A stretch of DNA of 36,516 bases, from IMG/VR virus record IMGVR_UViG_3300023171_000030, positions 1 through 36,516 of that record; one strand, 5' to 3'. The position numbers and the translations under genes are program-made. Shown here in pieces: positions 14,551 to 36,516 of the stretch (within the stretch, counting starts at the first letter, position 1; every line of letters begins with the position of its first letter). The stretch is from a virus. Under the pieces are notes generated by a model. It was given only the letters and a program-made list of their open reading frames with translations. It searched no databases and had not been told where the DNA came from.

Positions 14551-15462
14551 ATGGAACAATTACCTTGGTTTAAGTTCACTCCTAAAGACTGGATGATGGG
14601 TAAAATACAAAAATGCCCAGAAGTTACACAAGCTAGATTTATGAGATTGAATTCTGTTTATTGGAATAAAAAGTGTGTTCTTTCGTATAATGATGCTGAA
14701 ATTGAAATTGATAAAGAGCATTTAGACTGTTTGATTTCAAAAAGAGTTATAAAATGTTTTAATGATTTTATTGTAATAGATTTTTTAAACGAACAATTAG
14801 ACGATATTCAGAACGATAGCACTGACAAAAGTAGATCTGGGGAAATAGGCAACTTAAAACGTTGGCATCCCTTAATTCACGAGAGATATATGAAAAGAGA
14901 AATAACTTTAGATCAAGCTTTATCTATCGCATACCCATCGCACCCCGATCGCACCCCGATCGCACAGGTATCGCAAAACATCGCAGATATAGATATAGAC
15001 AAAGAAGTAGATAAGACAAAGAATAAGAATCTTAATACTATACTAAATAATTCTCTTTTGTCCGAAATTAAAATTTCTGACGATAAGTTGTTTTTTATTA
15101 TCAATGATTTAAAAATTGATGCTGACGAAAAGTTAATTTCTTATTTCGATATAGCCAGGAATTTTCAATTACTTTTTATTAAAAATCTAAAAGAAAAAGA
15201 ATCGCCTTTTGCTGTACAGGAAAAAGCTACTTATAAAAATTATATTCCTTCAATTCGGATAATGATTGAAAAAGAAAACGTAACTATAGAAAATCTTAGA
15301 GATGCATATAATTTCCTTAACAGCAAAGAAGGAGATTTTTGGAAGCCAAACATTTTATCTACTTCAAAACTAAGAGAACAGATATCGCAACTATTAATTC
15401 GAAAAAAAACAATACATAATGGATCAAAACCAGAAACCGCTAACAGAACAAGAAACCGATAA
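14551..15462 (+). CDS. Phage replication initiator (O/DnaD-like) carrying iterons
   Basis: 303 residues. The N-terminal domain (1-110) begins LPWFKFTPKDWMMGKIQKCP, as in phage replication proteins with a DUF1376/winged-helix-like front part. A hydrophilic linker at about 115-165 separates it from a helical C-terminal domain that ends with SKEGDFWKPNILSTSKLREQ, the closing segment of many O/DnaD-like initiators that contact the helicase loader. Six ATCGCA repeats lie inside the gene at codons 126-145, in the linker, as in lambda O where the origin is within the initiator gene. It overlaps the DnaC-like loader gene by 44 nt. Confidence 0.8.
   Translation: MEQLPWFKFTPKDWMMGKIQKCPEVTQARFMRLNSVYWNKKCVLSYNDAEIEIDKEHLDCLISKRVIKCFNDFIVIDFLNEQLDDIQNDSTDKSRSGEIGNLKRWHPLIHERYMKREITLDQALSIAYPSHPDRTPIAQVSQNIADIDIDKEVDKTKNKNLNTILNNSLLSEIKISDDKLFFIINDLKIDADEKLISYFDIARNFQLLFIKNLKEKESPFAVQEKATYKNYIPSIRIMIEKENVTIENLRDAYNFLNSKEGDFWKPNILSTSKLREQISQLLIRKKTIHNGSKPETANRTRNR
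14926..14985 (+). repeat. Iteron array: six ATCGCA repeats, probable replication origin
   Basis: ATCGCA occurs at 14926, 14937, 14948, 14959, 14970 and 14980, i.e. spacing 11, 11, 11, 11 and 10 bp, one helical turn each. Repeats 3 and 4 share the full 11-mer ATCGCACCCCG. AT-rich DNA with GATATA repeats follows immediately (14985-15070), which can serve as an unwinding element. The array sits in the linker-coding part of the initiator gene. No CRISPR-like spacers. Confidence 0.82.
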
Positions 15463-16312
15463 AAGTTTGCCGGTAAATAAAATTGATTTAGATTTTGGCT
15501 TCAACAGATATAATTTTCTAAAATCACTAAATCAAGATGATTTGTCTGAATTAGAAATTAATCAAATGAAAGATTTTGAAGAAATTCATTTTCAGTCAGA
15601 AGAGCAAAAAGAGAATCAAAAAATATATTGGCAGAAAGTTAGAGAATCAGTTGTAGAAGTTGAAAAAACATTTACAAAAAAAGAACTCTGGAATACTTTT
15701 CTTAAAACATTTAAGGAATTGCATGGAAAAGAATTTATTTATGATGGTGAAATTTTAGAAAACATCAAGCCTATAATGTACTATTTCTTAAAAGATGAAA
15801 ATTTCTTTTTCTGCAAAAACTTGTCAGGATTATCAGAACCAAGTTTTGATAAAGGCATATTACTTATTGGGAATTTCGGAAATGGAAAAACCGCTGTAAT
15901 GGCTACTTTTGAGAAAATATTTAAAGGCGTTAAATCTAAAACATTCAAAGGATATTCTACAAATGAAGTTGTAAACCTTTTCGAGAAAATAAATCCCGCT
16001 TCAAATGAGCAAGTAATTACAAGGCCGGAATTTGATAAAATGATGAATACAGGGAAACGTTATTTCGATGATATTAAAACTGAGCGCCATGCTTCAAACT
16101 TTGGCAAAATGAATTTAATGAAGGATATTCTTGAAGTCAGAGAAAAAAACAATCTGCTCACCCATGGTAGTTGCAATTTTAAAGACGGATGTGAAAATGA
16201 TATTCCGGCTGCTCTTGATGAATTTGAAGAAAAGTATGGAAGTAGGCTTTATGATCGTATTTTTAAAATGTTTAATATAATTGAGTTTAAAGGAAAAAGC
16301 TTTAGGCGTTAA
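15419..16312 (+). CDS. DnaC-like helicase loader (AAA+ ATPase)
   Basis: 297 residues. The AAA+ core is clear: Walker A GNFGNGKT at 151-158 within LLIGNFGNGKTAVMATFEKI, Walker B RYFDDI at 214-219, a sensor-1-like LLTHGSCNF near 247, and the closing YGSRLYDRIFKMFNIIEFKG that carries the arginine-finger region of DnaC/IstB-type proteins. The 130-residue N-terminal part would bind helicase or initiator. It overlaps the initiator gene by 44 nt, the usual O-P type pairing. It should load the host replicative helicase, since no phage helicase is visible in the window. Confidence 0.85.
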   Translation: MDQNQKPLTEQETDKSLPVNKIDLDFGFNRYNFLKSLNQDDLSELEINQMKDFEEIHFQSEEQKENQKIYWQKVRESVVEVEKTFTKKELWNTFLKTFKELHGKEFIYDGEILENIKPIMYYFLKDENFFFCKNLSGLSEPSFDKGILLIGNFGNGKTAVMATFEKIFKGVKSKTFKGYSTNEVVNLFEKINPASNEQVITRPEFDKMMNTGKRYFDDIKTERHASNFGKMNLMKDILEVREKNNLLTHGSCNFKDGCENDIPAALDEFEEKYGSRLYDRIFKMFNIIEFKGKSFRR

Positions 16313-20133: not shown

Positions 20134-20442
20134 ATGAATCAACAAATTTTTAATGAATTGGAAACGATAAATAAATTGTTCCATTACAAAACGGAAAACA
20201 TTTTAAATTACATCACGAAAAACTTAAATTCAATTTCAAAACTAGAAAGCAGAATAACTGATCTAGATGAAGAGATTGATTCACTTACAGAACAAGTACA
20301 AGATAGACCAAATTGTTTCGAATACCCTGATGGTTTTCAAGATAATATTGTGACCGTTTCTGCTTTGGAAAAAATGTTTGCAAACCTAGACAGAATTCCG
20401 GTGGATAAATTAGATGAATTTGTGGATAAATACGCTGTATAA
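20134..20442 (+). CDS. Coiled-coil hypothetical protein before the clamp gene
   Basis: 102 residues. A central coiled coil (ISKLESRITDLDEEIDSLTE) is followed by a conserved-looking C-terminal part (ALEKMFANLDRIPVDKLDEF). Its stop shares one base with the dnaN start (TAATG at 20440-20444), so the two are translationally coupled. No function recognised; a clamp-related role is only suggested by position. Confidence 0.6.
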   Translation: MNQQIFNELETINKLFHYKTENILNYITKNLNSISKLESRITDLDEEIDSLTEQVQDRPNCFEYPDGFQDNIVTVSALEKMFANLDRIPVDKLDEFVDKYAV

Positions 20443-21521
20443 TGAGTACAATAACCGTAAATAGTATTGATTTATTAAAATCAATCAACGTAGTAGCTCC
20501 TGTTGTAAAAGACAGGACTACTCTTCCGATATTGAGTAATTTGCTGATTAGTGTATCCGGAAACGAACTCAAAATAACGGCCTACAATCAAGAAACTAGA
20601 GCAAGTATAACAATGAAGATAGAAAGCGATGAAGAGTTCTCGTTTTGCGTATCGAAATCACTTCTTCATAGTATTTTGTCTAGTTTGCCAAATGTTGATT
20701 TGTCGATTAGTTTTGCTAAAACCACTTTGAGCATTTCTTCAAAAATAGGAGATTACAGCCTACCTACAGAAGAGGCAGTATTTTTTCCTGAAAGCCCAAA
20801 CTTAGGTGATCTGGATTCATTTAAAGTAGATTCTCAGTTGTTCGTGGACGGAATCCAGAAAGCAATTCCTTATGTAGATTCACTGACAGACAATCTAAAT
20901 CGTATTTTAATAAAATCTGAGGACTCGAAACTAAATATTGCCGGCATGAGCAAGGTTTCCATTTACGAAAAGAAATTCGATTACAATGGAGATGATGTAG
21001 AAATTATGCTTACAACGGAATCTGCCAAATTCATTAGCCAAACCATAAATACTGATTCCGATTTATCTATTAAGTATAATTCTAATTTCTTTTGTGTGTA
21101 TTTCGATAACATAACTATTGAATCTATTCAATTAGCTGTAAAATCGCCTCCTTACGGAAAGCTACTTGATAGTATTAAAGAGGAAAACATTTTAAAAATT
21201 AGTCGCGAATTATTTTTAGGATGCGTGAAAAGATTTTCTGCCGTATCTGATAAGGATAGCAAGTTTTTGGTCATGGAAGTTTCTAAGAAAAAAATTACTT
21301 TGTCTTATGAAAATGACTTTCTAAAACATACCAAAAAAGAGGAAGTAACTGAGTTTGAATACGATGGAATCGAGGTTAGAATCGGGTTAAATATCAATCA
21401 GCTAAGAACTATTTTGAGTACTCTGGAAGAAGATGTGACAATGTATTTTAGCGCACCTGATCGACCTGTCCTATTTGTAGAAACTCATACTAGAATATTG
21501 TTTTCTCCAATGAAAGTTTAA
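20442..21521 (+). CDS. dnaN: DNA polymerase III beta sliding clamp (phage DnaN)
   Basis: 359 residues, close to the usual length of about 370. The N-terminal domain is typical: LLKSINVVAPVVKDRTTLPI, then LSNLLISVSGNELKITAYN, and VSKSLLHSILSSLPN. The second and third domains follow with SLTDNLNRILIKSEDSKLNI and VSKKKITLSYEN, ending in TRILFSPMKV. As a dimeric ring it tethers polymerase to DNA. No polymerase or clamp loader is seen in the window, so host loader and host polymerase are probably used. A protein encoded two genes later carries a clamp-binding-like C-terminus. Confidence 0.9.
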   Translation: MSTITVNSIDLLKSINVVAPVVKDRTTLPILSNLLISVSGNELKITAYNQETRASITMKIESDEEFSFCVSKSLLHSILSSLPNVDLSISFAKTTLSISSKIGDYSLPTEEAVFFPESPNLGDLDSFKVDSQLFVDGIQKAIPYVDSLTDNLNRILIKSEDSKLNIAGMSKVSIYEKKFDYNGDDVEIMLTTESAKFISQTINTDSDLSIKYNSNFFCVYFDNITIESIQLAVKSPPYGKLLDSIKEENILKISRELFLGCVKRFSAVSDKDSKFLVMEVSKKKITLSYENDFLKHTKKEEVTEFEYDGIEVRIGLNINQLRTILSTLEEDVTMYFSAPDRPVLFVETHTRILFSPMKV

Positions 21522-24338: not shown

Positions 24339-27300
24339 TTAATTTGGAGTAGGTGGTTTTGGCGGTGAAGGTAACTTCAGTCCAGAACCTTTTTCTTTTT
24401 TATCTGATTTTGGCTTAGAAGAATAATTCTGAACGTTTCCTAATCCAGTAATTGAAAGAGCTGTTAAGAATGATTTAACCATATCAGGATCTTCTTTTAC
24501 GGCATCCCTAACAGATCCTAAGAAAATAGGATACATTGAGAAAGCTTCATCTTCCGAAAGTGTTTGCCCAAAATCGTTCACTCTTTCTATTTCTCCTGTT
24601 TTTTCATTTAATTTAGGAGTTGAAGTCATATAGTGATGGAACATTTGAAACCCAGGAGATTCTTTATTTATCAAAAATCTAGTTGTAGCATCGAATCTGT
24701 TTTTAATTCCATACTGCTCTTCTCCCATTTTATAAATAGAACCATCGGCACGTTTTACTTGTTCATCAAAGAGTCTTGCATATAAGGTGATTAATGGAAC
24801 ATATCCCCCCCATGGATCATATCTCAGTTTGCCAATTTTTAATTTTCCGAAATCAGAACTTCTTGGATCTTTTTCAATCGTTAGTTCTTCATCATCATCG
24901 TCTTTATAAGCGTTATATGCTGCCGTTAACAAAGCCATTGTTGCCATTGTAGAAACTGCTGACTTTAAAAATGTAGCCATGGCCATTTTATTTGCCACAG
25001 ATACTTTATTGTAGTTTCCGGCTTTAAAATCAGAAGACATAACTTGTTGTCTTACATACCAAATAGGATTAAGTTGTTGAAATACAGAAACAGCATTTTT
25101 AAACGAGAAGAAAAACACATTCAAAAGTTTCTGGTTCATTTCAAATCCGGCCGGCTTCGCTCTTCCAGAAAATGTCCTAATATAGCTTGCCAAAGCCTCA
25201 TAGTCTTCCGGATGATTTATCGGGTCTTTACCTTCCGCTTTAAGCCTATCTACTCCACGGACAAATTCTTCAAATCTTAATTGATTTCCATAAGCAGAAA
25301 GACCTCTTTCAACTGCTTCAAAAGCATTAACATTTTTCCATTGTTGAGATCTTGAAATTTTATCTTTCTCAGTTATTTCAAGTTTGTTTGTAGCAAATTT
25401 ATTATACTGTTTTTTAAATTCATCTATCAAAGTATCTCCAATAGATTTTCTTTTAGTATCTGTAAATTGCTTCCCTTTTTCACCTCCAAAATATCTTGTA
25501 CCTATCATGGTAGCATTCCAGATGAAGTTCAATAAATTTCCAGAGGCCATCTCCTCACGAACTTCATTTCTTAAATCAGGTTGTGTAATACCAATATCTA
25601 GTTTTTTAGCTAATGGAAAGTCGGGATGCCCGATCAACTGAGACATTGATTTGTCTGCTTTCTGCTGAGAACCAATAGAGCCAAACAGTTTCCAGAACTT
25701 TTTACCTAACTCTTTTGGATTTCTTAATAATTCAGAATAAGTAAAACCTCGAAGTTGAATACCAATTAAACCTAAATCCAACGAAGCTTTAACCGCACGA
25801 AGCAATCCTAAAGATTCAAGAGCAGCGTCTAAAAACTTTCTAGCTTTAGTTCTGTTTTTTAATTCTTGAATGTATTTAAGTTTCTCGAAATGCTCATAAA
25901 TTTCCTCTCTTTCAGCGCGTAAATTATTCAATTCATTGTCAGCTAAAATAGGTTTTACTTCTTTTTTAGCGAAATCTTTGTTTTTAATCCTTTCTTCTAA
26001 GTCTGAAATTTGCTTTTTAGCCCTAGTTTTAGCTGTTTTTAAGCGTTTTTCTTCTACTAGCCCAGCTTCTTCTCTCAAAATTTGTTTAGCAGCAAGAAGA
26101 CCTTTTTTCTGTGCTCTAAGATTTTCTAGTTTAGCAGAATTTAAAGCAGATGGTTTTTCTTTGTAAGCAATGTTTTGCGTATCGATTTCTTCTTGTAGCT
26201 TAGATATTGACTTTTCTAAAGTAGATTCTGCGCGCGATATTTTTTGTTCTTCCGTTAATTCCGGTTTTCCAACCAAATCATCTAATGTTTTTCTTTTTTC
26301 ATCACGAATAGATTTTAATGTTTCAGCCTCAGCATCAAGTTTAGTTTCAGTTCTTTCAACTTTCCTTCTTTCTCCGTTTGCTATTTGCTTATCTAAGTCT
26401 TCAATCTGATTTTTAAGATTTGATTTAATTTTATCGATAGCGGTTGCCCATTGCTCTTCTAAGTTAACCGATTCAAGCCCCAGCTCCTTCGCTAAGCGAT
26501 TAACTTCTTTCCTCAACTCTCTTGCTTGTTGCTCCGGTTTTTGACGCTTTAAACCGCTTTTTTTAGGCATTTCTCCATTTAAAACATCTTCATAAGCAGA
26601 AAGCAGTCTTCCGTATTCTTTTAAACGATTTATTTTACTGGTAATTTCATCCTTATTTGGATTTATTTGTTTTCCGTATCCAGTTAGTGCATCACGAATA
26701 TCGCGTATGTCAACATCTGGGAATTCTACTGAAATATCTTCTTTTATTTTTTGAGAAATAACATCTATGTCCGTTTCTCCGGCTTCTACATAATCTCTAA
26801 ATAATTGATTTGGAATTTTTATTTTCCCGTTTTCATCTATAGTTACTTTTGGTTGTTCTTTTTTAGAAACTTCATTAAATATAGCTTCTGCTTCTTTAAA
26901 TAAATTAGGCATGTGCTTTTTCGCTCCATCTCCAATTTCTTTCAAAACTTGTTTAGAAAAATTAGTCAAATCTCCTTTGGCAGCTTTAAAAGTCAATCCT
27001 AAATATTCTCTAAATTCTTTGTCGGCCAACATTGTAGCAACGCTGGTAACATCATTCAATCTTCCAAAGAATTTATTTCGTAATTCTTTTTTTCTTGACT
27101 GTTCTTTTTCTGTTAACCCAGATTTATCCTTAGTAGAAATTTCCTTTTTTCTCGAAAGATCTTCTTGAATATTTTTGATTGCTAATTCTTCTTCGGCTTT
27201 AGTCGCGCGCGATTCGGCTTCTTTAATTCTTTCCTCAACATCCTTTAACTGATTGGTTAGTTTTTCAAATTCAGCCTTAACTTCCGCAGGAATTTCCCCA

Positions 27301-30300
27301 TTGATATCATTGGCTTTATATTCCCTGATCAGTTTTGATAAATTGTATTTTAAAGATTGATCTTTGTTATAGATATAATTCATTATAGCAAGTCCCTGAG
27401 CTGATTTACGCACCGCGTTATCAAAGTCGTTTGATAATTCCTGAAACTTAGCAATAAGAGCCTCCCTGTCTTCCGGATTATTTAACGATTCTTTATCTAT
27501 TTCTGTTTTAAGCTTATTAAGAACTTCATTATAAACAAGCATCTTCATGTCTGTTTCTTCTATAAGATCGTTTTTTAGCGCATTTATTGCTTCAACAGTA
27601 CCAACTTCATCTACAAATGAAACAGCTTCGGCATCAGCCTTAGATTGATTTCTTACATCATAGCTTTCGTTCAGTTCTTTTAATGAGTCTGTGATATCTT
27701 TTTCGTTACCTCCTTCAATTAATCTGGAAAGCAAAGTTCTTTTTCCTGGTTTACGTTCAAAATCATTCTTAGGTTTTGCCTCTTTTTCAACTTTTTCCTT
27801 GTCCGGCTGAACTTCTTCATTGTTTGGCTGTTCTTTAGGTTTATTTTCAGTCTCAATGGTTTCTTTTTTTACTTCAACTTCTCTTTCACTTGGATTAGGC
27901 TCAACGGTTTTAGAAACACTTCTTTCGACAATATCTTCTTGTTCGGTAGTTCGTACTTCATCCACTGGCTTAACTCCAGATCGAACACCTCCATCAGTAT
28001 TAGTATTTGATTTCTGTATTGTTTCATTTTCGTTAACCTTAACAGTTTTAGTATAATCTTGTTTGCTTATGACCGGAACCACCTGCTCTTCGGAAATTTT
28101 AAATATATTGTCCATTTGGGATGATATCTCTTTAATTTTAAGATGGTTTAAATTCGAAATCCCTAACATCCCAAGGATTTCTTTCCATACCTTGCTTACA
28201 ATATTGCTTTCTTTATACTGAGAAGTTCTTCCGATATAATCTCTAAATTTTTTGTTAGAAACAAATTCAGCAATAAATTCATCTTCATTGGTAAGCCCAT
28301 AATTGAATGTTTTTGATAGTTTAGAAGAGTTTTCTAAATAATCATTTATTGTGTGTTTTAATAAACGATAAGATTCAACTTGGTCTTTTGTTAATACTTT
28401 TTTCATCTCTTCCATGTTATTGGAAAGATTATCATACGCGATCACAGAAGCCGCATGAACTGCTTCATGGAATAAAACTTTATCTTTTGAAGATTCATTA
28501 AACAGGTTAACTAAGTTAGATATTTCTATCTTGTTTTTTCCTGCATCAAATATTCCTGCAGTTTGTACGTCTTTAAGTAAATCACCAGTATCTACTATAA
28601 ATTTAGACTGCAATGTTGTGTTGTCTGGTATTGCATCTATTATATTTTGTGGAACATTGATTCTTTTCAACTCTTTTTTTAGAGGACTTTCGGTTTTTAT
28701 CTCCTCGACCTCTTGTGTTTCATTTGTTGGTTCTTGTATTTCGGCTTGTGGTTTGGCTTCGGTAGCTCCGGTAACAACTGTTTCTGATTTAACTTCATCT
28801 GTGATTTGATTTGAATAGTTTTTATTTGCTCTTTCTGTTATTTGTTCATTAGTAATCTCAATGTTTTTTTTACCTTCCGGATTAAGCTCTTCTGTTAGTT
28901 GTTTTAAAGCCTCTCGCTTAAGTTTATCCTGTTCTTTTATAGGCAGCACATCTACTTCCGAAATAGATCCTTCTAATATTTTAGACTTTAAATCATTCGC
29001 CTTGGTGTATTCAGTTTTTAAATTATCTAATAATATTTGTTTAGTTTCAGTAGTTGTACTTGGATCTAGTTTTATTTGTTTCGCTTTTTCTTGTGTAGAC
29101 TCTGTGATGTCAATAGACTTCAACAATTCTTCTTTTACTTTTGGCGATAGAGATTCTACATGTTCAACATTTTTTTGAACAAGATTTCTGTTTGTATCAA
29201 TTAAACCATCAATGGTTTTGGTTATTTCCTGTTTTGATTCCGGAGATAACTCGGGATTTTGAAGTTCATTCTGTAAATTAAAGACTTTTTTGTTATTGGT
29301 TTTTATCGTGTTTTTATCCTGGTAATTTGTCACTTGTTGAATTCCTTTTAATCCTGCGCCAAAAACAGCTCCTCCAAACGCGCCTCCAATAAAATCATCG
29401 GCCATGGTCTGATAAATATTATAATCGGCCGGCTTAACTCCCGTAGCCACATCCACTGCGTTTTCGGCAACTCCTTGAAAAGCTTCCTCTAATCCCTCTC
29501 CAGACATAGACGCTAATAATGGATTTTTCAGCAAAGCATTTTTATAATACTCGCTTAATCCATCTTTCAAAATAGTTACTGCCTTTTTACTTCCTTCTCT
29601 TTCAACAAGGCCTCTTGCAGCTGCTCCAATACTACCGGTCCCTAATGACTCAGTTGCTCCCTGAATTAATCCGGTAGCCAATGCATTTGCAACTCTGACA
29701 TTATTATTCATTTCCGAATTTTCTTCTTTTAGTTGCTCGTTTTTACCAGCACCAAACATCATAGATGAAGCAGCGATTAATTGGGGAGCTTTCATTGCTG
29801 CTCCACCAACCATAATAGAGGTAGTTGCCGGCAATGATTCAGCAAAACTATTGGTTAACTGATCAAATCCTCCGCTGTAATCTCCATTCACGAATGAATC
29901 ATAAATACCATCTTGATATTTTATATCGGTTTCTAAAGATTTTTGTTTTAATCCTGAAACTTCTTTTTTGTAGTAATCTTTTACTGCATTATTAACCCCA
30001 ACTGTTTTTTTAAACTCTTCGGAATTAGTTCTAAAACTAGGCAGATTAAAAGTATCGGCTATTGCGTTTTGAGGTATAGCAAAAACATCATAAACTAATT
30101 CAGGAATTGAAGCAATATCAGCGCCTAGTTGAGAGCTTCCAGTAGCTAGTCTATCGGTAAGCGCACCAATTTTACTATAGTTTTGTCTTTCTCGTTCACG
30201 AGCCTTAGAGGCTTCTTTGAAAGCTTCTTGCTCTTTATTTATTTTTGATAATTCATCCGTTTTTTTAGATATTTCATCTTGATTTTCTGGAGTGACTGTT

Positions 30301-30650
30301 CTGTCCGACAGTTCATCTTCAAGTTCTGCTTTTCGTTGAAGAGTTTTAGCGTTTTTGTCCAAAAAGGTTTTTAGTTCTTTGTTTACTTTAGGCACAGCAG
30401 TTTTAGGAGGATTAATTGTTTTTAAATCCTCCTTAGATAAACCGGTAAAAGTTTTTATTTTAGTATCTGGCCCACCCGCAGAACCAGTAGTCGGTTCCAA
30501 AACCAATTCTTTCTTTTGAATAATAGAAGTAGAAGGGTCTTTTTTTTTTACTTCATCAAAAGGCAAATCTGGATTAAATGCCGGTTTTTCTGATGAAACT
30601 TCTTCATAAGCTTTATTTGGATCGAATTTAGGTTTTTTAGGTTGCTCCAT
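24339..30650 (-). CDS. Giant polyvalent virion protein with HEAVH zincin-like motif
   Basis: 2103 residues, minus strand. The N-terminus has a repeated short motif (FDPNKAYEEV, FNPDLPFDEV) and a Lys/Glu-rich region. Two hydrophobic stretches lie at about 275-305 and 415-435. Residues 728-732 read HEAVH (in FHEAVHAASV), with Glu795 in EDEFIAEFV as a possible third metal ligand, as in zincin-like domains of phage polyvalent proteins. Long coiled coils span about 1100-1250 and 1400-1650. A hydrophobic segment near 1890 (TMATMALLTAAY) precedes the C-terminal domain. It is the last gene of a podovirus-like block after two ejection-type proteins and probably enters the cell with the DNA. Confidence 0.75.
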   Translation of the reverse strand: MEQPKKPKFDPNKAYEEVSSEKPAFNPDLPFDEVKKKDPSTSIIQKKELVLEPTTGSAGGPDTKIKTFTGLSKEDLKTINPPKTAVPKVNKELKTFLDKNAKTLQRKAELEDELSDRTVTPENQDEISKKTDELSKINKEQEAFKEASKARERERQNYSKIGALTDRLATGSSQLGADIASIPELVYDVFAIPQNAIADTFNLPSFRTNSEEFKKTVGVNNAVKDYYKKEVSGLKQKSLETDIKYQDGIYDSFVNGDYSGGFDQLTNSFAESLPATTSIMVGGAAMKAPQLIAASSMMFGAGKNEQLKEENSEMNNNVRVANALATGLIQGATESLGTGSIGAAARGLVEREGSKKAVTILKDGLSEYYKNALLKNPLLASMSGEGLEEAFQGVAENAVDVATGVKPADYNIYQTMADDFIGGAFGGAVFGAGLKGIQQVTNYQDKNTIKTNNKKVFNLQNELQNPELSPESKQEITKTIDGLIDTNRNLVQKNVEHVESLSPKVKEELLKSIDITESTQEKAKQIKLDPSTTTETKQILLDNLKTEYTKANDLKSKILEGSISEVDVLPIKEQDKLKREALKQLTEELNPEGKKNIEITNEQITERANKNYSNQITDEVKSETVVTGATEAKPQAEIQEPTNETQEVEEIKTESPLKKELKRINVPQNIIDAIPDNTTLQSKFIVDTGDLLKDVQTAGIFDAGKNKIEISNLVNLFNESSKDKVLFHEAVHAASVIAYDNLSNNMEEMKKVLTKDQVESYRLLKHTINDYLENSSKLSKTFNYGLTNEDEFIAEFVSNKKFRDYIGRTSQYKESNIVSKVWKEILGMLGISNLNHLKIKEISSQMDNIFKISEEQVVPVISKQDYTKTVKVNENETIQKSNTNTDGGVRSGVKPVDEVRTTEQEDIVERSVSKTVEPNPSEREVEVKKETIETENKPKEQPNNEEVQPDKEKVEKEAKPKNDFERKPGKRTLLSRLIEGGNEKDITDSLKELNESYDVRNQSKADAEAVSFVDEVGTVEAINALKNDLIEETDMKMLVYNEVLNKLKTEIDKESLNNPEDREALIAKFQELSNDFDNAVRKSAQGLAIMNYIYNKDQSLKYNLSKLIREYKANDINGEIPAEVKAEFEKLTNQLKDVEERIKEAESRATKAEEELAIKNIQEDLSRKKEISTKDKSGLTEKEQSRKKELRNKFFGRLNDVTSVATMLADKEFREYLGLTFKAAKGDLTNFSKQVLKEIGDGAKKHMPNLFKEAEAIFNEVSKKEQPKVTIDENGKIKIPNQLFRDYVEAGETDIDVISQKIKEDISVEFPDVDIRDIRDALTGYGKQINPNKDEITSKINRLKEYGRLLSAYEDVLNGEMPKKSGLKRQKPEQQARELRKEVNRLAKELGLESVNLEEQWATAIDKIKSNLKNQIEDLDKQIANGERRKVERTETKLDAEAETLKSIRDEKRKTLDDLVGKPELTEEQKISRAESTLEKSISKLQEEIDTQNIAYKEKPSALNSAKLENLRAQKKGLLAAKQILREEAGLVEEKRLKTAKTRAKKQISDLEERIKNKDFAKKEVKPILADNELNNLRAEREEIYEHFEKLKYIQELKNRTKARKFLDAALESLGLLRAVKASLDLGLIGIQLRGFTYSELLRNPKELGKKFWKLFGSIGSQQKADKSMSQLIGHPDFPLAKKLDIGITQPDLRNEVREEMASGNLLNFIWNATMIGTRYFGGEKGKQFTDTKRKSIGDTLIDEFKKQYNKFATNKLEITEKDKISRSQQWKNVNAFEAVERGLSAYGNQLRFEEFVRGVDRLKAEGKDPINHPEDYEALASYIRTFSGRAKPAGFEMNQKLLNVFFFSFKNAVSVFQQLNPIWYVRQQVMSSDFKAGNYNKVSVANKMAMATFLKSAVSTMATMALLTAAYNAYKDDDDEELTIEKDPRSSDFGKLKIGKLRYDPWGGYVPLITLYARLFDEQVKRADGSIYKMGEEQYGIKNRFDATTRFLINKESPGFQMFHHYMTSTPKLNEKTGEIERVNDFGQTLSEDEAFSMYPIFLGSVRDAVKEDPDMVKSFLTALSITGLGNVQNYSSKPKSDKKEKGSGLKLPSPPKPPTPN

Positions 30651-33333: not shown

Positions 33334-36300
33334 TTAAGTATAACTTTTTATTACATTGCTATTAAAAGCATACACTTCTGTTTTTGTATTTTTCGATATA
33401 GATGCAGTTACTAACATATGGTATCCTAACAAACCTTGTGATTCAGCACTTTTTGATTTAGAACACATTACATAATCTCCTGAAACTATGTTTGCAACAC
33501 TTGTCAAAGTTAGGGAATTTTCCGTTTTGTTTTGAATAATACCTACAACTTGATTTGAAAGGTTTACTATTGTGTCTCCAACAGAAACTTCTCCCTCTAA
33601 TGAAAATGAGAAATTAAGGATTAATCCGTCTATTGTACAGTTTCCAATTCCTTGAACTGTTAGACTGGCATTATCAATTATTGCATTAGAAGTCCTTGGA
33701 TACGCTCTAAAAACACCTTCCTGCTTTTGAAAGTCATTTGAATTTATAAATCCAGATTCTAAATCAGTTTTAAGTTCTATTTGCCAAGGATCAGTTCCTT
33801 CTATTTCTAAATTTTTATATATTTTTCTTTCACTTGGATTTTGCGAAAAATTAAAAACAAATTTGCTTAAAAATTCTTCTCCATAAAATGTATTTCTTCC
33901 GTTTGGCTGATTGTGCTCATAAATTTCTCCATTTTTAAACGAGAAGAATTTACTGTTAACTCTACACATATCTTCCGGATTGAAAGTCAATCTACCTAGC
34001 CATCCATCATCTAGATCGGAATAAACCCATGTAACGTATTCAGTGGTATTGAATTTCACGTTCAAAATATATACATCATGGTATTGATCGTACCTTCCAA
34101 TTACCTGATTAATCACATTGTCTCTGAATAGTTTTTTGAAATAATTAGTCATTTTTTGACTAGAAATTTCAAACAAACCATTATTCGTTTTCTTCATGAC
34201 AACTCCTCTTTTTACATCGGAATGATAAATAGTGCTTGCGTATATGTCAAAGCTTTCAGGATTCATAGATATTCCATATTCTCCCTGATAAGTGTCTTGA
34301 ATACCTAAAACATCCTCAATTTTGGACAAGTTGCTAGTGCCATCTGCATTGAATAAGATATCTTTCCCGTAATAAATAATAGAGTCCTTGTCTTCTTGCA
34401 AAACTTGAAGATTAGTATCAAGCCCTTTTATTTTATAGATAGGTCCATATGACTTATCTATATCGTCTTTGAAATTAGCTAAATAAAGATTGAACTCATT
34501 TAATTTGTTTACATTGGTATTGGAATTATATACACCGGAGTAAGTGATATCAGCAAATCTATTTATCTGCTTGTATTCATCTTCACTTACTGCAGTAGGG
34601 CTAAAGTCGATGCTAACGTATTTTTCATTGAAACCATCTCTAATTTGATGGCTCTCAGCTCCATTTCCCTGAACATAACAATTAAATGTTTTGGCTAATA
34701 AGTGATTCGTAAATTGATGCTCGCCATCTGTAACAGTGAAAATATCTGGAGTTTCATAAAAAATATCATTTGGAGTTTCTTTTCCTAATGTTTCAAATAC
34801 AAAATATCCACTAATACTTCTAAGCAATAAGTTAGCGTCCAAGAAACCTCTTCTTGTTGTTCCGTTTCCGGCAGCCGTTCCCTCTATCCTTAAATAGTAT
34901 TGCCCTGCTGGATCTGCAACAAATTGTCTTGATCCAAACAGATAAACAAATCTTCCTTTAACCATTTCTTTTCCAAAAATACCACCCGAAGTTCCTTGAA
35001 AAACTATTCCTGCTAATTCAGCATCATAATAATCTTTAAAATTGGCATAATTATCATTGACAATAAAGGTTCTATTGTAATCATTACGCTCACTATCTCT
35101 ATGATAATCACTATGTAGATTTATAGTTAATTCTGAACCTTGAACTATCGGTACATCTGTATAAATTACTGGATCTCCGCTTGGAGCAGAAAAAATATTA
35201 CCGCCTAAATAAGAAAATGGTCGATCATTTTGAGTAGCAGTATTATCTTCGCTATATCTGAATTCATCTTCACCATAGTCAATACTAAAGCCTTCCGGTC
35301 TTATTTTCATATAGACACCGGCTTGCTCAGTAATTAAGTTTCCGTCATTATCTTTGTTTCCGACTATAAAATCAGCTTCTTGTGTTTTAATCTCAATTAC
35401 TTTTGTTTTAGTTACATTCGCAATAGGATTGTACACGTCTTTCTTAACAAGGAGCAAATCACCTTCGCTTACTTTGTTTCGATTAACTCCATCCAATCTA
35501 ATCCATCTGTATATTCCGTCTTTGTAGAATATGCTGGCGTAAATTTCTTCGTAAGGACCTCTGTTTTCTTTTATTCCAAATTTATAAGTGTTTGCCCAAA
35601 CTGGAGGTTTTTGAGTTGAAGGAATATTTACAGAAATTATATTTTGTGTAATACTATTTTTGATCGGAATAAAAATAGTATTGTTCGTGCTTGTTAGTGC
35701 TGTTGTCTTTCTTCCATACTTGTCCTTGTAAATCATACAAATTTCATAACTTCTATATGATTTTAAGCTTTTTTTACTTCCCAGAGATTCAATAGAAGAA
35801 ACAGTAACAACATTTCTAAAGTATTCGTTTACAAAAACATTTGGATCTGGATCGACTTTTTCTATCTCATACCTAACAGTAGGAAAAACTATTTCTATTA
35901 CATTGGCATTGATAACGTTTAATTTGAAACCATTATAAATAAAAGGAATAATTGTATCGTCTGGAATTTGCAAAGATGTACCCTTTAAAAAGTCGCTAAA
36001 ATAATTTTCTAAATTATCCTTAAACCCATTAGAAGTGTCTTCTACTAAATCCTGAATATTTGCATAGTCTTTATCTAAAATAAAATTATAAGTGTTGTTA
36101 AATAAATCCTCTGTTATGTCCTCCCCAATAATATAAGTCCCCTTTATATTAAGAGTTATATATATTATAGATCCGGCTATAAAATCAGAAGTTGAAAAAT
36201 TTAATTGTACTTTACCATTGGTGATAACACTAGAATCAAATGGAGAAACAGAATTAAGCGGAGTTACGGTTACGTTATTAGAAACAAACGAATTTGTTAT

Positions 36301-36516
36301 TAGATTCAATGTATAGTCAGGAACCACCTTGTTTCCGTTTTTATCAATCAAATCTTTATTTTCCTTATAGTTTCCGCTCATAACTCTATTTCCGGCTATT
36401 GTCGCAGCAACTTCGCTTTCAGGAACATTATCAAATGATCTGAAATATTGATCTAGTGGCAAAGGAGTATAAACTTTGCTATTGCTAAATTGAATAGTCT
36501 GAGTAGTATTATCCGG
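33334..36516 (-). CDS. Large tail / muzzle-like structural protein, partial
   Basis: Minus strand; the frame stays open through the right edge of the window, so the N-terminus is missing. A TTG at 36460-36462 is probably not the real start. At least 1060 residues are visible. Near the visible start, FDNVPESEVAATIAGNRVMS and GNYKENKDLI form a GNR-x-x-x-GNY motif that I recall from tail-stabilisation or muzzle proteins of Bacteroidota podoviruses, including crAss-like phages. The rest is beta-rich with no coiled coil or membrane helix, ending in VKSYT-like beta segments. It opens the visible part of the virion block. Assignment by motif memory, not certain. Confidence 0.6.
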   Translation of the reverse strand, partial: PDNTTQTIQFSNSKVYTPLPLDQYFRSFDNVPESEVAATIAGNRVMSGNYKENKDLIDKNGNKVVPDYTLNLITNSFVSNNVTVTPLNSVSPFDSSVITNGKVQLNFSTSDFIAGSIIYITLNIKGTYIIGEDITEDLFNNTYNFILDKDYANIQDLVEDTSNGFKDNLENYFSDFLKGTSLQIPDDTIIPFIYNGFKLNVINANVIEIVFPTVRYEIEKVDPDPNVFVNEYFRNVVTVSSIESLGSKKSLKSYRSYEICMIYKDKYGRKTTALTSTNNTIFIPIKNSITQNIISVNIPSTQKPPVWANTYKFGIKENRGPYEEIYASIFYKDGIYRWIRLDGVNRNKVSEGDLLLVKKDVYNPIANVTKTKVIEIKTQEADFIVGNKDNDGNLITEQAGVYMKIRPEGFSIDYGEDEFRYSEDNTATQNDRPFSYLGGNIFSAPSGDPVIYTDVPIVQGSELTINLHSDYHRDSERNDYNRTFIVNDNYANFKDYYDAELAGIVFQGTSGGIFGKEMVKGRFVYLFGSRQFVADPAGQYYLRIEGTAAGNGTTRRGFLDANLLLRSISGYFVFETLGKETPNDIFYETPDIFTVTDGEHQFTNHLLAKTFNCYVQGNGAESHQIRDGFNEKYVSIDFSPTAVSEDEYKQINRFADITYSGVYNSNTNVNKLNEFNLYLANFKDDIDKSYGPIYKIKGLDTNLQVLQEDKDSIIYYGKDILFNADGTSNLSKIEDVLGIQDTYQGEYGISMNPESFDIYASTIYHSDVKRGVVMKKTNNGLFEISSQKMTNYFKKLFRDNVINQVIGRYDQYHDVYILNVKFNTTEYVTWVYSDLDDGWLGRLTFNPEDMCRVNSKFFSFKNGEIYEHNQPNGRNTFYGEEFLSKFVFNFSQNPSERKIYKNLEIEGTDPWQIELKTDLESGFINSNDFQKQEGVFRAYPRTSNAIIDNASLTVQGIGNCTIDGLILNFSFSLEGEVSVGDTIVNLSNQVVGIIQNKTENSLTLTSVANIVSGDYVMCSKSKSAESQGLLGYHMLVTASISKNTKTEVYAFNSNVIKSYT

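Follow-up and report, generated by a model that had tools for sequence, protein, structure and literature searches.

This segment of a phage initiator gene is very probably a replication origin, built like ori-lambda inside gene O. Six copies of the word ATCGCA follow one another there, and the choice of word probably depends mainly on a short GNLKRW motif encoded upstream in the same gene, alternative motifs with matching iterons serving initiators that have other N-terminal domains. The window, i.e., the whole 36,516-nt stretch of DNA analysed, is a 36.5-kb viral contig that encodes an integrase, and the source of the array is a temperate phage. The features concerned, in window coordinates, were as follows.

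14551..15462, plus strand: initiator gene P0001, 303 aa (open reading frame; C-terminal PHROG matches)
14551..14838, plus strand: N-terminal domain, residues 1-96, modelled with a winged-helix-like fold (AlphaFold model; phrog_29280 match)
14848..14865, plus strand: GNLKRW motif, residues 100-105, putative reader of the iterons (motif class predicts word; helix 96-105 of the model)
14926..14931, plus strand: iteron 1, ATCGCA (exact word match)
14937..14942, plus strand: iteron 2, ATCGCA (exact word match)
14948..14953, plus strand: iteron 3, ATCGCA (exact word match)
14959..14964, plus strand: iteron 4, ATCGCA (exact word match)
14970..14975, plus strand: iteron 5, ATCGCA (exact word match)
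14980..14985, plus strand: iteron 6, ATCGCA (exact word match)
14986..15085, no strand assigned: AT-rich DNA containing GATATA repeats, putative unwinding region (76% AT; function suggested by position)
15217..15447, plus strand: DnaD/O-like C-terminal region, residues 223-299, putative site of contact with helicase or loader (phrog_2514, 1.2e-8; phrog_4880, 4.7e-8)
15419..16312, plus strand: DnaC-like helicase-loader gene P0002 (phrog_3277, 5.6e-10)

All six copies were exact and began where the initial annotation had placed them (14926, 14937, 14948, 14959, 14970 and 14980); their measured spacing of 11, 11, 11, 11 and 10 bp agreed with its description of repeats one helical turn apart. As a plain word, ATCGCA was not enriched (10 in the window, 11.6 expected). 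When the initiator gene was shuffled synonymously 5,000 times, at most 3 copies were reached, compared with the 6 seen, and among 200 Markov sequences as long as the window the best hexamer array at 10-12-bp spacing also had 3. No other hexamer array with at least 4 copies at 10-12 bp was detected in the whole window. Copy 1 was located at codon 126 of the 303-aa reading frame and copy 6 in codons 144-145. Because the period is 11 bp, the copies occupied all three codon phases and encoded unrelated peptides (IA, SH, DR, IA, SQ and IA for copies 1 to 6). The six core positions were invariant and the spacers differed, which together with the three codon phases indicates that selection acts on the DNA; the conserved entity of the array is DNA, not peptide. 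It is extremely improbable that the array is a functionless protein-level repeat or a tandem repeat left by replication slippage. Bacterial chromosomes do hold 11-bp ATCGCA tandem repeats outside initiators, but such an account does not fit the use of three codon phases or the recurrence of arrays in homologous linkers and their near-absence from upstream controls, and a tandem or coding repeat was ruled out by the synonymous shuffles, which never reached six copies, and by the invariant core with variable spacers.

Residues of about 223-299 of P0001 matched DnaD-like, replisome-organizer and O-like PHROGs, the phrog_2514 match (1.2e-8) covering residues 225-295, so that the array occupies linker-coding DNA of an O/DnaD-like initiator gene (codons 126-145), as had been stated. 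A relation to the lambda O family did not extend over the whole of P0001; only the C-terminal ~70 residues matched O-like/DnaD-like PHROGs. No Pfam family matched P0001 in the Pfam search, and no match was obtained to the Rep family of iteron plasmids. The adjoining gene at 15419-16312 matched DnaC-like families, confirming the helicase loader expected next to the initiator, and its product shared 43% identity with loaders from flavobacterial phages. Among named relatives, those nearest to both initiator and loader were phages of Flavobacteriia. Elsewhere in this 36-kb genome, the phage encodes a sliding-clamp homologue (DNA polymerase III beta) at 20442-21521 (Pfam DNA_pol3_beta, phrog_947), and two very long minus-strand reading frames spanned 24339-30650 (2103 aa) and 33334-36462 (1042 aa). 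GC skew was tried as an origin sign and discarded as uninformative; it tracked gene direction, with a flip near 24.3 kb.

The lambda origin contains four 18-bp iterons; the array of the window differs from it in having six 6-bp cores at 10-11 bp. In lambda and Stx phages, direct iterons plus an AT-rich tract are located in the middle of the initiator gene and the loader gene comes next (PMC7466680). The window has the same layout as this lambdoid O/P module, with iterons and AT-rich tract inside the initiator gene, the repeats between the two domains of the protein and the loader gene directly downstream. A lambda-like iteron origin within the initiator gene, as first proposed for this DNA, remains the best reading in view of the DNA-level selection, the DnaD/O-like C-terminus, the DnaC-like neighbour and the arrays in relatives. 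In iteron plasmids (RepA/RepE type), initiator-bound direct repeats are likewise about one or two helical turns apart, but they usually lie outside the rep gene, whereas those of the window lie inside the initiator gene. Arrays of sites within a gene can in principle act as transcription roadblocks, and the array might be an operator at which the protein binds inside its own gene and regulates the replication genes. We regard this as very unlikely: the arrays are in the linker, away from the promoter; the AT-rich repeat stretch comes after them; in several unrelated phages the next gene encodes a loader or helicase; and the anatomy equals that of ori-lambda (PMC7466680).

As an origin, the segment would work by binding, melting, helicase loading and contact of the motif with bases, all of which are steps that we infer. 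P0001 would bind all six ATCGCA copies, whose spacing of one helical turn is expected to align the bound molecules on one DNA face. The AT-rich stretch next to the iterons would then melt, and P0001, through its DnaD/O-like C-terminus, would recruit the replicative helicase together with the DnaC-like loader encoded next to it. GNLKRW, located where the N-terminal domain ends, would mainly set the word read, and phage initiators with other N-terminal domains would use alternative motifs and matching iterons.

The window as a whole had an AT content of 0.67, compared with 0.42 within the array and 0.76 over the 100 bp that follow it. Of the AT-rich DNA with GATATA repeats reported after the array, the AT-richness itself was upheld (76% over 14986-15085) as a moderately unusual property; 6% of 100-bp windows were equally AT-rich, so the flank alone is only moderately unusual and the AT-rich tract that lambda-type origins have beside their iterons is present to a moderate degree (top 6% of windows). 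The sequence AGATATAGATATAG was located at 14985-14998. Each initiator family had its own short-period repeat downstream of the arrays. The repeats GATAAG, AGTAAAGGAAAG and TGTTAATGATAATG past the iterons (window 14986-15085 and linkers L403-L562) exceeded synonymous expectation, and these family-specific repeats resembled the DnaA-trio/DRE element. In Bacillus subtilis, the DnaA-trio strand is the complement of 5'-CTACTATTACTTCTACTA-3', and its complement is the DnaD recognition element (PMC10201434). When three families were pooled, GTA, TAA, AGT, ATA and TAG were the trimers most above synonymous expectation on the strand past the arrays, and these are trimers of the DnaA-trio strand in the oriC unwinding region of B. 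subtilis. In contrast to that oriC, the window had no DnaA-box cluster (two scattered TTWTNCACA matches, below chance), and the trimer enrichment was not significant in the window's own gene (TAA/TAG, 8 vs 5.9, p 0.13). It might be conjectured that the DnaD-like C-terminus binds a trio-like strand.

The initial annotation considered the iteron sequence and 11-bp period particular to this phage, which was contradicted when (ATCGCA N5)x3 was found in 103 IMG/VR stretches, for the most part in the linkers of initiator-like genes whose N-terminal domains differ; the reversed word was found in 17. In most of the 103, the array was located at about codon 105-135 of a sense reading frame of 250-300 aa, in all three phases, and the surrounding frames varied widely in their N-terminal domains, which included DUF1376 and Lin1244_N. 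For the reversed word, only 1 of 17 stretches was inside an initiator-like frame (L274). Comparison of the same gene in related phages, a check suggested at the outset, showed that relatives with the same N-terminal domain retained ATCGCA arrays in the same linker (L120-L123, L127). Cousins with a V/I..RW motif had GATACA/AATACA repeats in place of ATCGCA. Linker ATCGCA arrays were also observed without GN..RW in other winged-helix-type initiators (L051, L059/L153, L063, L064, L070, L073 and L087). Four-copy ATCGCA arrays in genome contigs were mostly tandem repeats outside initiators, the only initiators being L153 and L208, and no relative was detected when genome contigs were searched with the N-terminal alignment. 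A dispersed repeat family with ATCGCA arrays at 11 bp was present on many contigs per genome in Bacteroidales bacterium RUI194 and SUG1147 (L151-L230); these small tandem arrays would often read TNRTPIAFQSHTNRT if translated and were unrelated to initiators.

Genes of the DUF1376 type (PF07120, including YdaU, annotated as primosomal protein I), of the Lin1244_N type (PF14297, also annotated as DUF4373) and of a third phage group, which we take to be DUF6291-like, shared the plan of the window's gene: an N-terminal domain, a short motif, an iteron array and a repetitive linker, often with a helicase or helicase-loader gene next to them. Their N-terminal domains had no detectable sequence similarity to that of the window. 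In many ATCGCA-bearing frames, AGxxGNxxRW stood directly before the array, and in cousins other words accompanied other motifs. Initiators were collected with N-terminal domain queries only, from which the motif was left out for DUF1376, Lin1244_N and DUF6291-like genes; the query for the window type included the motif region. The census comprised 227 genes (157 non-redundant) in four N-terminal families. Arrays of at least 3 copies were present in 137/212 homologous linkers and in 3/207 upstream control stretches, the first figure overstating true iterons since 6-bp codon repeats give rise, as harmonics, to some of the DUF1376 and DUF6291-like arrays; the word test is independent of this count.

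ATCGCA was found in 14/20 genes with GN..R and in 0/207 others, or in 13/18 and 0/139 when non-redundant genes were counted (p 2.5e-15), and ATCGC occurred downstream of the motif in all 18 non-redundant GN..R genes. The window's gene belongs to this proposed GN..RW-ATCGCA class, with GNLKRW at residues 100-105 and the array in codons 126-145. After exclusion of the contigs that had suggested the rule, the association was still 8/13 vs 0/138 (p 2e-10). Among non-redundant genes, SA..R was associated with TCAAC (17/39 vs 3/118), xA..RW with AATGC (18/31 vs 6/126), x[VI]..RW with AATAC (4/9 vs 2/148) and GGRP with AACCC (9/23 vs 1/134); each association was significant across two or three N-terminal families, with the reservations that the motif classes are coarse regular expressions, that about half of the genes in these four classes fail a strict two-copy spacing rule, and that the census itself supplied the words besides ATCGCA, near-prospective status being limited to ATCGCA and the isolate set below. 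With motif labels permuted within families, a maximum of 43 matches was obtained compared with 86 observed, and the numbers were practically the same when only DNA downstream of the motif was used. Cross-family pairs shared a repeated hexamer in 21.4% of cases when the motif was the same and in 6.0% when it differed, a result reached in 0/1000 permutations. Third codon positions of the GN..R motif showed only 33% agreement when families were compared, and the first iteron lay 4 to 142 bp past the motif (60 bp in the window's gene), indicating that the motif is a shared protein element and not one recently moved piece of DNA. The segment GNLKRWxxxIYxxxxxxxIxLEEA was common to the window type and DUF6291-like genes despite their differing N-terminal domains, and by its sequence resembles a portable cassette.

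Twenty named phage records were chosen by N-terminal homology alone for a prospective check, and 15 had a classifiable motif. The predicted word, required at least 2 times within 160 bp, was present in 13/15, and non-predicted words in 2/60 cells (p 8e-11). Enterococcus phage EF62phi (GAEKRW) had four ATAGCA at 11 bp, fitting a finer rule, GA..RW-ATRGCA, that was derived from census genes. Both misses were near-misses: elemoC (GNLKKY) had TCGCA/AGCGA, and a Porphyromonas phage had one AATACA plus GATACA. Among bacterial-chromosome loci, the rule fitted L276, L278, L280, L291 and L310 and failed in L277, L282, L283 (partly masked) and L292.

On balance we favour a modular recognition code, in which a six-residue helical motif, encoded within the initiator gene immediately ahead of the origin, would read the iteron in a large set of initiators. 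The proposed pairs are GN-ATCGCA, GA-ATRGCA and GM-ATAACA (few cases for GA and GM), [AS]A-AATGCA, V/I-AATACA, SA..R-TTCAAC and GGRP-AACCC. A lambda-like intragenic origin is a known arrangement, and the short recognition module appears to be undescribed; our literature search, which covered open-access papers, found lambdoid origins and no motif-iteron rule.

In the AlphaFold model of P0001, pLDDT was about 90 at residues 20-80 and the motif was in helix 96-105, past the winged-helix-like domain. In the model of the Lin1244_N initiator L413, a long helix (90-119) ended with the GN..RW motif. Confidence of the models near the motif was modest and Foldseek matches were weak, mostly to winged-helix proteins, so contact of the motif with bases is something we only infer; a sequence search of solved structures yielded no usable relative. 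A rival with some weight, though unlikely, is an origin at which the winged-helix part of the N-terminal domain reads the iterons and the motif merely marks word-specific subfamilies. Both models have the winged-helix-like fold, another winged-helix type without GN..RW still has ATCGCA arrays, and the specificity of lambda O is usually ascribed to its N-terminal part. Such a reader is hard to reconcile with the same word and motif across N-terminal domains that have no detectable sequence relation, or with the different words that accompany different motifs within one N-terminal family. From the sequences, GN..RW is evidently not the sole means of reading ATCGCA (L051, L059, L063 and L064).

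The motif-reading code would provide a likely function and a likely origin for widespread phage families known mainly as DUFs (DUF1376, Lin1244_N/DUF4373 and DUF6291-like), and would make replication origins predictable from sequence in many unannotated phages. It amounts to a simple, testable rule on the choice of a DNA word by a short peptide, and would explain how initiator-origin matching is kept while the rest of the protein is shuffled. If true, replication specificity could be switched by exchange or mutation of one short segment holding both reader and site.

Initiators with other words were also observed. Lin1244_N initiators of Pseudoalteromonas, Vibrio and Escherichia phages (L566, L567, L568 and L569) were without the motif and had GTCATGA/TCATGAC sites in the linker. 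Two named marine phages had clear arrays in the initiator gene: nine AAAGCA at 11-12 bp in Polaribacter phage Danklef_1 (L009, 2330-2430) and four GGAACA at 11 bp in Tenacibaculum phage Gundel_1 (L007, 2058-2096).
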